Assembly (NCBI RefSeq): GCF_029213205.1 | Contig: NZ_JARGNH010000003.1 | Location: 1-64,000, forward strand | DNA from: Pseudooceanicola sp. | GTDB taxonomy: Bacteria > Pseudomonadota > Alphaproteobacteria > Rhodobacterales > Rhodobacteraceae | Reading direction: 5' to 3' | Length of the DNA stretch: 64,000 bases | Part shown: positions 16,120-19,350 of the stretch, in pieces | How positions within the stretch are numbered: the first letter of the stretch is position 1 | How the letters are laid out: each line of letters begins with the position of its first letter | Notes under the pieces: model-generated | Seen by the model: the letters and a program-made list of their open reading frames with translations, nothing else | Told to the model about the DNA's origin: nothing | Database searches by the model: none | Made by a program: the position numbers and the translations under genes

Positions 16120-16743
16120 ATGAACCGCAAATACCTTCCCGGCATTCTTGCCATGGCCGCGATTGTCGTGGCTTCGAACATCCTCGTTCAGTTCCTGTTT
16201 GGCCAGTGGCTGACCTGGGGGGCGTTCACCTATCCCTTTGCCTTTCTGGTCACCGATGTGATGAACCGGGTCTATGGCCTGGCCGCCGCGCGTCGGGTGG
16301 TGATCGCCGGCTTTGTCACCGGCGTCGCCTGTTCGCTGATCGGCACCCAGATTTCCGGCGAGTTCGGGCCGCTGGTGACGCTGCGGATCGCGCTGGGATC
16401 AGGCCTGGCCTTTCTGGTGGCGCAGCTGACGGATGTATTTGTTTTCAACCGCTTGCGCCAGGGCCGCTGGTGGCGGGCGCCGCTGGTGTCGACGCTGATC
16501 GGGGCGACGCTCGACACTACGCTGTTTTTCAGCATCGCCTTTGCCGCGACGCTGACCTTTCTGGAGCCGGGCAATGATATCGCCTGGGCCAATGAACCGC
16601 TGCCGCTGCTCGGCCTCGGGCCGGTCGTGCCGCTCTGGATGTCGCTGGCGCTGGCGGATTGGAGCGTCAAGCTGACCCTCGCAGTGATGGCTTTGTTACC
16701 ATTTCGTGTGGTTGTCCGAAAAATGACCGCAAGACCTGCCTGA
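16120..16743 (+). CDS. yhhQ: Queuosine precursor transporter (YhhQ/VUT family)
   Basis: A 207-residue, six-helix inner-membrane protein of the QPTR family that imports preQ0/preQ1 for queuosine modification of tRNA. Typical stretches are WLTWGAFTYPFAFLVTDVMNRVYG and FLVAQLTDVFVFNRLR. No other queuosine genes are nearby, so assignment rests on family alone. It ends about 60 bases before the structured region preceding arfB. Confidence 0.88.
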   Translation: MNRKYLPGILAMAAIVVASNILVQFLFGQWLTWGAFTYPFAFLVTDVMNRVYGLAAARRVVIAGFVTGVACSLIGTQISGEFGPLVTLRIALGSGLAFLVAQLTDVFVFNRLRQGRWWRAPLVSTLIGATLDTTLFFSIAFAATLTFLEPGNDIAWANEPLPLLGLGPVVPLWMSLALADWSVKLTLAVMALLPFRVVVRKMTARPA

Positions 16744-16800
16744 TTTTGTTTGGCGATCCGCGAATTTTGTGAGACGATTCAGATATCGGAAACAAACTGA

Positions 16801-16931
16801 AAGGAGGTGCTCTAGTGTCTAATGGGACTTTGGAGAGAGGTGTTGGAACAGTTTGGAGGCAGGTCAGCTGAGGCAGCCCTCGGCTGAGTGAAATCCAGAT
16901 TGGTGGGCAACCTAACCGACCCCACCTCCTT
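16801..16931 (+). ncRNA. Candidate structured leader RNA upstream of arfB
   Basis: AAGGAGGTG at 16801-16809 is exactly complementary to CACCTCCTT at 16923-16931. Between them lie a 9-bp hairpin (CAGCTGAGG/CCTCGGCTG, 16865-16886, one G-U pair) and a second possible stem, GGTGGG 16902-16907 with CCCACC 16921-16926, which competes with the outer pairing. The 5' strand is a perfect Shine-Dalgarno followed by a short GTG reading frame. The layout resembles a translation- or ligand-responsive leader. I could not match it to a named RNA family. Confidence 0.45.
16815..16871 (+). CDS. Possible 18-residue leader peptide
   Basis: A GTG five bases after the AAGGAGGTG Shine-Dalgarno opens an 18-codon frame, VSNGTLERGVGTVWRQVS, whose stop lies inside the central hairpin of the leader. 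An overlapping frame from ATG 16822 encodes 21 residues (starting MGLWREVLEQFGG) but has longer spacing. No run of one amino acid is present, so a classical amino acid attenuator is not indicated. Confidence 0.35.
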   Translation: MSNGTLERGVGTVWRQVS

Positions 16932-16939
16932 ATCTCGAC

Positions 16940-16969
16940 AAGGGCCGTTCCATATTCGGGGCGGCCCTT
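16940..16969 (+). terminator. Terminator-like hairpin before arfB
   Basis: AAGGGCCG (16940-16947) pairs with CGGCCCTT (16962-16969), followed by TCATATT. It lies 40 bases before the arfB start and could be an attenuator terminator. The U-tract is short. Confidence 0.45.
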
Positions 16970-17009
16970 TCATATTGTCAGCACGCGACAGGCGCAGGGC
17001 AAGGCAACC

Positions 17010-17423
17010 ATGCTGAAGATCACCGAGCAGATCAGTATCGAAGACTGGGAACTGACCGAGCAATTCATCCGCGCGTCAGGCCCCGGCGGGCAGAACGTGA
17101 ACAAGGTGTCCACGGCGGTCGAACTGCGGTTCGAGGCCGAACGCTCGCCGTCGCTGCCCCCGGCGGTCAAGGCACGGCTGAAGCGGCTGGCCGGGCGGCG
17201 CTGGACCAAGGAGGGCGCGGTGGTGATCCAGGTCTCCGAGGAACGCTCGCAGGCCCGCAATCGCGACATCGCCCGGGAGCGGCTGGCCGAGCTGGTGCGC
17301 AAGGCGACGATGGTGCCGAAACGGCGGGTGCCGACGAAAGTGTCGAAGAACCAGAAGCGCAAGCGGGTGGAGGCCAAGAAGGTGCGCAGCGAGGTGAAGG
17401 AAGGGCGGGGGTGGGAGCGGTGA
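17010..17423 (+). CDS. arfB: Alternative ribosome-rescue factor ArfB (peptidyl-tRNA hydrolase)
   Basis: A 137-residue ArfB (YaeJ). Its GGQ motif in SGPGGQNVNKVSTAVELRF hydrolyses peptidyl-tRNA on ribosomes stalled without a stop codon, and its basic C-terminal tail (KNQKRKRVEAKKVRSEVKEG) enters the empty mRNA channel. Length fits the stand-alone rescue factor rather than RF1/RF2. It follows a structured leader and terminator-like hairpin and is convergent with ettA, another ribosome-acting factor. Confidence 0.94.
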   Translation: MLKITEQISIEDWELTEQFIRASGPGGQNVNKVSTAVELRFEAERSPSLPPAVKARLKRLAGRRWTKEGAVVIQVSEERSQARNRDIARERLAELVRKATMVPKRRVPTKVSKNQKRKRVEAKKVRSEVKEGRGWER

Positions 17424-17694
17424 GGGAGATCTCGGAAAGCAGTCAGTGCCGGATGCGCCAGTGTTGTGCTCTTACGAAAGGATCACCGCTGAAGGGCTGG
17501 AATCTCTAAGCCCATAACCGTCCATCAAACCGGGGGAACTCCAACTACAGCCATTGGTATGCTATCGCCGGGTGACTTCGAAATAAGACAGCAGAAACTG
17601 AACCAGGCAGGTGTCTAGGAAGCTAGGGGCACCTCACTGCGTGACTGGCGCTCAGCGGTCAGGTCACCGCAAGCGCCAGTCCTAAATCAGCGGA
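17424..17694. other. Gene-free stretch between arfB and ettA
   Basis: About 270 bases with no convincing frame, lower in GC than its surroundings. The left part reads like non-coding or relic sequence; a segment around 17517-17552 resembles the end of a degraded insertion element, but I cannot name one. The right end carries the strong hairpin listed separately. Confidence 0.4.
17643..17681. terminator. Strong hairpin between convergent arfB and ettA
   Basis: GACTGGCGCT (17643-17652) pairs perfectly with AGCGCCAGTC (17672-17681), and inside it GCGGT/ACCGC extends the stem. It lies 14 bases beyond the ettA stop. Placement suggests a bidirectional terminator, but neither side has a U-tract. 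Confidence 0.5.
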
Positions 17695-19350
17695 TCAGCG
17701 GGTAAACTTCTTGTATTTCACCCGCTTGGGTTCCATTGCATCGGGCCCCAGGCGTCGCATTTTGTCTTCTTCGTAATCTTCGAAGTTGCCTTCGAACCAT
17801 TCGACATGGGCGTCGCCCTCGAAGGCCAGCATATGGGTGCAGATCCGGTCGAGGAAGAAGCGGTCGTGCGAAATCACCACCGCGCAGCCTGCGAAATCGA
17901 CCAGTGCGTCTTCGAGTGCGCGCAGGGTTTCGACGTCGAGGTCATTGGTCGGTTCATCAAGCAGCAGCACATTGCCGCCGTCCTTCAGGAGCCGCGCCAT
18001 ATGGACCCGGTTGCGCTCACCGCCCGAGAGCAGCAAGACTTTTTTCTGCTGGTCTGAGCCTTTGAAGTTGAACGCGCCGCAATAGGCGCGCGAGTTGATC
18101 TCGGCATCGCCAAGCTTGATGATCTCGGCGCCGCCGGAAATCGCCTGCCAGACGTTGTCATCGGGGCTGAGGTCGTCGCGGGACTGATCGACATAGGACA
18201 GTTTGACCGTATTGCCGATGGTGACGCTGCCGGAATCAGGCTGTTCCTGGCCGGTGATCATCTTGAACAGGGTGGATTTTCCGGCGCCGTTGGGGCCAAT
18301 CACCCCGACGATGCCGCCGGGCGGGATCGAGAACGACAGGTTCTCGATCAACAGCTTGTCGCCCATCGCCTTGCTCAGATTCTCGACCTCGATCACCTTG
18401 CCGCCGAGGCGTGGCCCATGCGGAATCACGATCTGTGCCTTGCCGACGCGTTCGCGCAGCGATTCATCGGCCATCTTTTCATAGGACTGGATCCGCGCCT
18501 TGGATTTCGCCTGCCGGGCCTTGGCCCCCTGGCGCATCCATTCCAGTTCGCGTTCCAGCGTCTTTTGCTTGGCCTTGTCCTCGCGGGCTTCGTGCAGCAG
18601 GCGCTTGGCCTTTTGTTCGACCCAGGCAGAATAATTGCCCTCGTAGGGAATGCCACGGCCACGGTCGAGCTCTAGGATCCAGCTGGTGATGTCATCCAGG
18701 AAATAGCGGTCATGGGTGACGATCAGGATGGTGCCCTTGTAGTCGATCAGGTGCTGTTGCAGCCAGGCGATGGTTTCGGCATCCAGGTGGTTGGTCGGTT
18801 CGTCGAGCAGCAGCATATCCGGCTCTTCGAGCAGCAGTTTGCAGAGCGCGACCCGGCGTTTTTCGCCGCCCGAGAGGGTGGTGACATCGGCGTCATCCGG
18901 CGGGCAGCGCAGCGCCTCGAGCGAGATGTCGATCTGGCTGTCCAGATCCCAGAGGTTCTGCGCGTCGATCTCGTCCTGAAGCTTGGCCATTTCCTCGGCG
19001 GTCTCATCCGAGTAGTTCATCGCCAGGTCGTTGTAGCGGTCGAGGATCGCCTTTTTGTCGGCCACGCCCAGCATCACATTGCCGCGCACGTCGAGGTTTG
19101 GATCAAGGTCGGGCTCCTGCGGCAGATAGCCGACCTTGGCGCCTTCGGCATGCCAGGCTTCGCCCTGAAAATCCTTGTCCCAGCCGGCCATGATCTTCAA
19201 CAGGGTCGATTTGCCCGCGCCATTGACCCCGACAACGCCGATCTTCACCCCCGGCAGGAAATTCAAATGGATGTTCTCGAAGCATTTCTTGCCGCCGGGA
19301 TAGGTCTTGGAGACCCCGGACATGTGGTAGACATATTGATACGAGGCCAT
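17695..19350 (-). CDS. ettA: Energy-dependent translational throttle protein EttA
   Basis: A 551-residue ABC-F protein that binds the ribosomal E site and gates the first elongation step according to ATP/ADP ratio. Two ATPase halves are visible: Walker A GVNGAGKSTLL and signature LSGGEKRRVAL in the first, GPNGAGKSTLF and LSGGERNRVHMARLL in the second. Between them lies the basic P-site tRNA interaction motif (RQAKSKARIQSYEKM). I chose ATG 19350 (MASYQYVYHMSGVSKTYPGGK), the family start, over an extension to 19470. Confidence 0.96.
   Translation of the reverse strand: MASYQYVYHMSGVSKTYPGGKKCFENIHLNFLPGVKIGVVGVNGAGKSTLLKIMAGWDKDFQGEAWHAEGAKVGYLPQEPDLDPNLDVRGNVMLGVADKKAILDRYNDLAMNYSDETAEEMAKLQDEIDAQNLWDLDSQIDISLEALRCPPDDADVTTLSGGEKRRVALCKLLLEEPDMLLLDEPTNHLDAETIAWLQQHLIDYKGTILIVTHDRYFLDDITSWILELDRGRGIPYEGNYSAWVEQKAKRLLHEAREDKAKQKTLERELEWMRQGAKARQAKSKARIQSYEKMADESLRERVGKAQIVIPHGPRLGGKVIEVENLSKAMGDKLLIENLSFSIPPGGIVGVIGPNGAGKSTLFKMITGQEQPDSGSVTIGNTVKLSYVDQSRDDLSPDDNVWQAISGGAEIIKLGDAEINSRAYCGAFNFKGSDQQKKVLLLSGGERNRVHMARLLKDGGNVLLLDEPTNDLDVETLRALEDALVDFAGCAVVISHDRFFLDRICTHMLAFEGDAHVEWFEGNFEDYEEDKMRRLGPDAMEPKRVKYKKFTR

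Follow-up and report, generated by a model that had tools for sequence, protein, structure and literature searches.

The window, by which we mean the whole 64,000-nucleotide stretch of Pseudooceanicola sp. DNA that was analyzed, carries on its forward strand a yhhQ-type queuosine precursor transporter gene (16120..16743; TIGR00697 with 98.7 bits at a cut-off of 50.95) and, further downstream, the ribosome-rescue hydrolase gene arfB (17010..17423; NF006718 with 177.4 bits at a cut-off of 100). Between them, the window sequence contains a candidate small RNA gene at around 16785-16970, upstream of arfB and with all of its parts on the same strand. The putative promoter region is the intergenic stretch 3' of yhhQ (16744..16784), and the -35 box reads TTGAC in 38 of 54 upstream regions of relatives of the Rhodobacteraceae type (a group defined by its peptide pattern, with the family inferred from named copies) and a degenerate TTTGGC in the window. 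The probable 5' UTR (16785..16798), whose first base would be the RNA start, is a relative of a CAACAA block in other clades; an AAC is present at -32 to -14 in 142 of 153 distinct loci. An extended Shine-Dalgarno sequence (SD), GAAAGGAGGTGCTCT, with complementarity to the 3' tail of 16S rRNA follows at 16799..16813, and directly after it stands a reading frame of 18 codons from GTG at 16815 to TGA at 16869-16871 (16815..16871; MSNGTLERGVGTVWRQVS).

The structural elements that a preliminary description of this DNA had pointed out are all present in the sequence. Positions 16801-16809 (AAGGAGGTG) are exactly complementary to 16923-16931 (CACCTCCTT), and in fold predictions this complementarity appears as helix H1, formed by AGGAGGTG (16802..16809) and CACCTCCT (16923..16930), the latter being a copy of an anti-SD. 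The short GTG frame behind the SD and a central helix of 9 bp, H2 (16849..16857 with 16894..16902), were likewise recovered. So was the competing stem, hairpin H4 (16902..16926), in which GGTGGG at 16902-16907 stands opposite CCCACC at 16921-16926 and thus overlaps the 3' strand of H1; H4 is absent from the minimum-energy fold, and variants of it are visible by eye in the alignment of relatives. The terminator-like hairpin, AAGGGCCGTTCC and GGGGCGGCCCTT around an ATATTC loop (16940..16969), is separated from the arfB ATG at 17010 by 40 nt; it is followed by a poor T-tract (CCCTTTCATATT) and was not called in a terminator scan of this region of the window. Besides these elements, the predicted fold contains a hairpin P2 that includes the start codon (16810..16835; 16810-16815/16830-16835 with an inner stem 16817-16820/16825-16828), which resembles hairpins predicted for L003, L008, L013, L026, L027, and L042, and a 10-bp hairpin that spans the stop codon (16864..16887; 16864-16873/16878-16887). 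A long-range helix, P1, was recognized by covariation and would join codons 3-5 (16822..16827) to the stretch adjoining the terminator (16933..16938), though it is weak in the window itself. The minimum-energy fold of the window RNA is closed by H1 and holds the start codon inside a hairpin. Folding of 16780-17010 gave z = -4.06 against 200 shuffled sequences, one of which folded equally well.

At Rfam gathering scores, no match was found in the window, whereas a permissive search aligned 16791-16968 to the full model (1-159) of CC2171 (RF01867) with 32 bits and an E-value of 3.1e-5, below the gathering cut-off of 75 bits for this family. The preliminary description had held that a match to a known, unrelated RNA would speak against its interpretation of the locus, and a match to a known RNA is given by CC2171. 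It was the sole match to this model in the whole genome (E 7.4e-5, model 1-159). Among 60 genomes, 41 matched the model at E <= 0.01 and one exceeded the cut-off, while six of 17 loci that were scanned passed it with 76-92 bits; judged by record titles, the latter include a Caulobacterales MAG, Bosea, and Roseiarcus, and each of the six has a short frame in addition to the 5' block. We read the element in the window as a putative divergent homologue of CC2171 and not as a formal member. Both share the 5' block GAAAGGAGGUG-UC-AGUGUCU, a long-range helix before the terminator, and a terminal hairpin, whereas the Rhodobacteraceae copies differ by an additional SD/anti-SD helix and the start-codon hairpin. 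The long-range helix shows covariation in the Rhodobacteraceae type and complementarity in the clades that we call MSHC and MSHG. Rfam types CC2171 as an sRNA gene, but its relative in the window carries a frame under selection (see below), and the frame found in the loci above the cut-off also does not fit a purely non-coding RNA. A match to CC2171 below the cut-off was also seen in Deinobacterium chartae, a control genome from far outside the Alphaproteobacteria.

The source of CC2171 is reportedly Landt 2008, and CCNA_R0050 may be the Caulobacter CC2171, a guess based on coordinates. In those parts of the literature that were accessible, CC2171 is listed among the families improved with R-scape in an Rfam release paper (PMC11701678) and features in an sRNA prediction for Mesorhizobium (PMC5596092). 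A literature search on CC2171, RF01867, and the motif letters returned no paper that attributes a reading frame to CC2171 within the text portions available, and none is described in the corresponding portions of PMC12559287, PMC4117421, PMC5988900, PMC10117765, PMC11005374, PMC5107571, PMC5082802, PMC5596092, or PMC11701678; the motif letters themselves gave no match.

The spread of this element was followed at several levels. By DNA similarity, the block was found in 33 of 60 genomes including its own and all 21 others labelled as the same genus. Scanning named genomes for GAAAGGAGGTGNTCNNDTGTC, where the start codon had to begin with A, G, or T, yielded at least 120 loci, and among the matches listed 114 have alphaproteobacterial titles, three are titled "Proteobacteria," and three belong to other phyla. 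A looser pattern of the 5' block occurred in 85 of 385 genomes of the class (reversed control: 0/385), and the exact pattern is missing in the other 300, which means absence of the pattern only. In a phylum-wide draw, the pattern was present in 50 of 86 genomes inside the class versus one of 213 others; the control gave a single match in this draw, G518. One genome, G047, has two copies of the 5' block (C1:805113 and C1:2922049); the other matching genomes of the 385 show one. From these comparisons, the element looks like an RNA gene homologous to CC2171 that is spread through the Alphaproteobacteria.

Briefly, the sets of sequences compared below were as follows. The 153 distinct loci exclude three non-alphaproteobacterial ones (L069, L081, and L102) and L167 with its long frame, all of which are kept in the set of 150 distinct loci that was used for frame closure. 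Covariation and codon tests were performed on 57 RNAs that fit a peptide pattern and whose frames have 17, 18, 20, or 22 codons; the length rule dropped only L074 (cut by the end of the locus), so that any bias in the stop-codon test should be slight. Only loci whose terminator was called with a score >= 26 entered the helix tests. Identical copies were merged.

Several observations show that the start codon, the frame, and the stop codon are all under selection. At the start position, CTG occurred in 0 of 385 class genomes as opposed to ATG, GTG, or TTG in 85. Frame 0 closes within 14-31 codons at 148 of 150 distinct loci (the two misses are L081 and L167), compared with 36 and 31 for the other two frames, and of 56 Rhodobacteraceae-type sequences, 53 have a frame of exactly 18 codons. 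Codon 19 of the 57 RNAs is UGA in 33, UAG in 13, UAA in 8, UGG in none, and something else in 3. On the tree of these 57 sequences, new in-frame stops arose only 4 times versus 11.7 expected, a count as low in 4 of 1000 null runs, and changes within the stop codon kept it a stop in 16 cases and lost it in 8, against 6 and 17.9 under the null (losses as low in 6 of 1000 runs). Judged by these comparisons, selection acts on the frame as such, and we consider an autonomous small RNA gene with a selected frame to be highly probable. The comparative evidence also points to a translated short frame of the kind expected from a dual-function sRNA.

The SD block is exactly GAAAGGAGGTGATCC in 93 of the 153 distinct loci and can still pair with G-U in a further 23; together with the start codon, it is what the relatives have in common. 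GAAAGGAGGTGATCC is the exact complement of GGATCACCTCCTTTC, which forms the end of all seven 16S genes of relatives that were checked and stays single-stranded as the tail of the mature 16S rRNA. A 16S-specific string was found in eight of 60 genomes (five of the same genus), and the seven places fetched among these eight (four of the same genus) were all model-confirmed as 16S and all end in GGATCACCTCCTTTCT. The assembly that contains the window gave no match to the 16S tail. A shorter string of the tail occurred at two places, one being the small RNA gene in reverse orientation (L220) and the other a 16S gene (L221). The genus of the window has GCTCT instead of GATCC, and its match to the 16S tail is therefore shorter than that of its relatives.

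What holds the RNA together was assessed with our own tree-aware covariation scan, which is similar to R-scape and used 600 null alignments of the 57 sequences with a threshold of E < 0.05. Two pairs covary, 16854-16897 in H2 (E 0.007) and 16822-16938 in P1 (E 0.015), while 16942-16945 (E 0.09) belongs to no helix. The covariation asked for by the preliminary description was thus found for H2 and P1 but for neither H1 nor any antiterminator pairing, and H1 lacks it because the SD is invariant. Conservation of the two complementary strands, which that description had made a touchstone of its idea, is borne out in relatives: in 55 of the 57 RNAs of the Rhodobacteraceae type, the 40 nt preceding the terminator contain a 7/7 complement (G-U allowed) of GGAGGUG, compared with a rate of 0.19 in shuffled sequences. 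In a fixed register, H1 has eight pairs in 35 of these 57 RNAs, seven in 21, and five in one; its outermost pair (A16802) is broken in 20 and met by a gap in one more.

Folding of 56 Rhodobacteraceae-type RNAs predicts a mean paired probability of the SD of 0.98 at full length versus 0.37 before the 3' strand is made, so that the SD is predicted to close only once this strand exists. This comparison alone would be misleading with regard to SD closure across the class, and shuffled controls were decisive here: pairing of the SD was 0.97 versus 0.66 in shuffles for RNAs of the Rhodobacteraceae type, 49 of 56 of which exceeded every one of their eight shuffles. No other group rose above its shuffles; the values were 0.61 versus 0.75, hence below, for the MSHC group and 0.85 versus 0.79, not clearly above, for Bradyrhizobium-like copies. 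Sequestration of the SD as a class-wide trait was rejected on these grounds, and in our models SD/anti-SD closure is a trait of the Rhodobacteraceae type.

The long-range helix P1 behaves differently. In the window it is weak: the covarying pair 16822-16938 is A-A there, and what remains is UGGGA (16823-16827) opposite UCUCG (16933-16937) with two G-U pairs. Elsewhere it is written in other letters such as CATTGTC/GACAATG, CATGGTTCAGC/GCTGACCATG, or AGTGA/TCAC. A full 8/8 complement is present in 16 of 20 MSHC loci (0.4 when shuffled, 0.1 when swapped), and at least 7/8 positions match in 17 of 18 MSHG loci (4.4 in shuffled and 6.7 in swapped controls) and 20 of 55 loci of the Rhodobacteraceae type (5.6 and 3.0, respectively); the counts are not clearly above chance for MSSD/E (3/16, 1.7 expected), Bradyrhizobium-like loci (2/7, 0.5 expected), and the rest (6/19, 2.5 expected). 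The energy of the P1 duplex beats all 30 shuffles in 5 of 55 Rhodobacteraceae-type, 9 of 20 MSHC, and 11 of 18 MSHG loci. For the window, the fold with H1 (-86.7 kcal/mol) is better by 12 than that with P1 (-74.4 kcal/mol). H1 and P1 cross, which makes them either alternatives or a pseudoknot, and we view the RNA as a possible two-state RNA on the basis of these models.

The preliminary description had assembled the same elements into a two-state leader that controls arfB. Its two-state part is supported as a possibility by the selected frame, an SD whose closing is predicted to depend on the 3' strand, and the crossing helices, but the part assigned to arfB is not supported. Such a cis-acting attenuator, in which translation of the frame would set formation of the terminator and hence read-through into arfB, could draw on arfB lying downstream on the same strand at 48 of 59 Rhodobacteraceae-type loci, with its start no more than 60 nt from the terminator in 14 of them (the window and 13 others), and on the weak T-tract in the window. 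A promoter between 16970 and 17010, which would have made the region irrelevant to arfB, did not turn up either: a scan of 16300-17700 that was limited to sigma-70-like promoters found none, and the 16970-17010 stretch from the terminator hairpin to arfB leaves little room for one. Yet the distance from terminator to arfB varies from 14 to 1392 nt (a few of these gaps are off, the hairpin having been misplaced by the terminator caller in L015 and poorly called in some other loci), and arfB was not found at eight loci with 900 nt or more of downstream sequence; three more end too soon. Among 98 distinct loci outside the Rhodobacteraceae type, whose flanks differ in extent and reach at least 700 nt downstream in 90 cases, no yhhQ and no downstream arfB were found, and the only ArfB-like gene (52.6% identity; L133, a Hyphomonadaceae MAG) lies upstream on the opposite strand. 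Neighbors of these loci differ by clade according to crude gene calls for the loci listed, several being on the opposite strand, whereas the frame starts 70-76 nt after yhhQ at 45 of 55 Rhodobacteraceae-type loci with a yhhQ match. No pair between the terminator and upstream sequence covaries at E < 0.05 as an antiterminator would. An arfB attenuator is distinctly unlikely as the function of this RNA, while read-through into arfB is possible in the genome of the window, where the gene starts 40 nt further on, and at the 13 other loci with gaps of up to 60 nt.

Three other explanations take the RNA as a unit of its own and differ in what they make of its frame. If the RNA were a small mRNA that encodes a functional protein and whose structure merely tunes the yield, this would explain why start, frame, and stop are kept and why peptides are alike within clades (MSRVILERGVGTVRGAVA, MSHGSAERS..., KRCHLAGIAR). 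Such a protein should leave a trace of selection on amino acids, and none was found in the 57 Rhodobacteraceae-type sequences, where 120 synonymous changes face 120.2 expected and changes are spread over the codon positions as 132/135/133; a functional peptide was therefore rejected as the selected feature for this set. Across clades, peptides share by eye nothing beyond MS, and even the likeness within the Bradyrhizobium-like copies may reside at the RNA level, as their conserved KRCHLAG codons hold CACCTC, complementary to the SD (7/7). We consider this explanation improbable. The opposite extreme, a base-pairing sRNA of the classical non-coding kind in which the frame is an accident, would agree with the way CC2171 is filed in Rfam, with the terminator hairpins, and with the conserved loops, but the restriction of the start codon and the closure of the frame make it very improbable. 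A 30S decoy, finally, would bind the whole 16S tail and hold subunits by a stem right after the start codon; the exact complement of 15 nt of the tail in so many loci and a helix that begins at codon 3 in two large clades would suit it. Selected short stop-free frames imply elongation and release instead, and in the Rhodobacteraceae the completed RNA is predicted to conceal its SD, which leaves the decoy as a poor candidate overall.

The explanation that we favor, if only by a little over its being wrong, is a ribosome-gated independent small RNA in which translation itself is the signal that separates a closed from an opened form. From a promoter of its own, the transcript would run to the terminator, and ribosomes would load at the 5' site that matches the free 3' tail of 16S rRNA. 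The frame would serve to carry a ribosome across P1 and H2 while stopping short of the 3' strand. Translation would thereby open P1, in which codons 3-5 pair with the pre-terminator stretch, and because the ribosome halts before the 3' strand, we propose that the 3' segments become exposed only in translated molecules. In the Rhodobacteraceae, the finished but untranslated RNA would lock its SD by the anti-SD copy at the 3' side. The opened form would free CACCUCC and UCUCGA for action on other RNAs or for exposure to decay; CACCUCC and GGCAGCCC are candidate segments for pairing with partners. As a bolder extension, which we regard as conceivable though rather unlikely, the RNA might serve as a class-wide sensor of ribosome availability that senses free 30S subunits by the whole 16S tail and is unlocked by translation itself, not by its product, with the Rhodobacteraceae form then releasing an anti-SD copy able to dampen initiation on other mRNAs.

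If true, the ribosome-gated RNA would be a rare and testable case in which a free-standing small RNA uses translation for signaling. The RNA that Rfam lists as a Caulobacter sRNA has relatives throughout the Alphaproteobacteria in which a frame headed by a complement of the whole 16S tail is maintained as such and, in the set examined, not for its peptide, and the residues to mutate are defined for models such as Caulobacter or Rhodobacter.

Other systems share some of these features. Ribosome-entrapment leaders of the S15/rpsO type likewise have a strong SD and a structured start codon, but the present RNA is no leader of a ribosomal-protein gene. Spot 42 is reportedly a dual-function sRNA with a protein of 15 amino acids, where the peptide acts; small RNA and tiny frame are alike, while no selection on amino acids was found for the RNA studied here. 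The rnTrpL (trpL) attenuator RNA of Sinorhizobium, called a dual-function sRNA in the literature, resembles it as a short terminated leader RNA with a very short frame (peTrpL, 14 amino acids) but is described there as leaderless and located before trpE (PMC10117765), whereas the RNA in the window has an extreme SD and no constant gene downstream.

Some observations concern single clades. The 14-codon frames of Bradyrhizobium L117, L125, L138, L144, L148, and L174 as well as Xanthobacteraceae L097 end in KRCHLAGIAR or KRCHLAGAAR, and four of the Bradyrhizobium-like copies contain CTCGCTGG complementary to a downstream CCAGCGAG. At the Sphingomonadales loci L064, L093, L172, L180, and L181, a branched-chain aminotransferase-like gene comes next on the same strand, as judged by eye. 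GANTC sites in the promoters formed no consistent pattern. An inverted repeat, TGACAnA ... TCTGTGTCA, is located between the -35-like TTGACA and the start in L009, L012, L026, and L029 and could be an operator; by eye, this repeat (between -35 and -10) is confined to some copies of the Rhodobacteraceae type.
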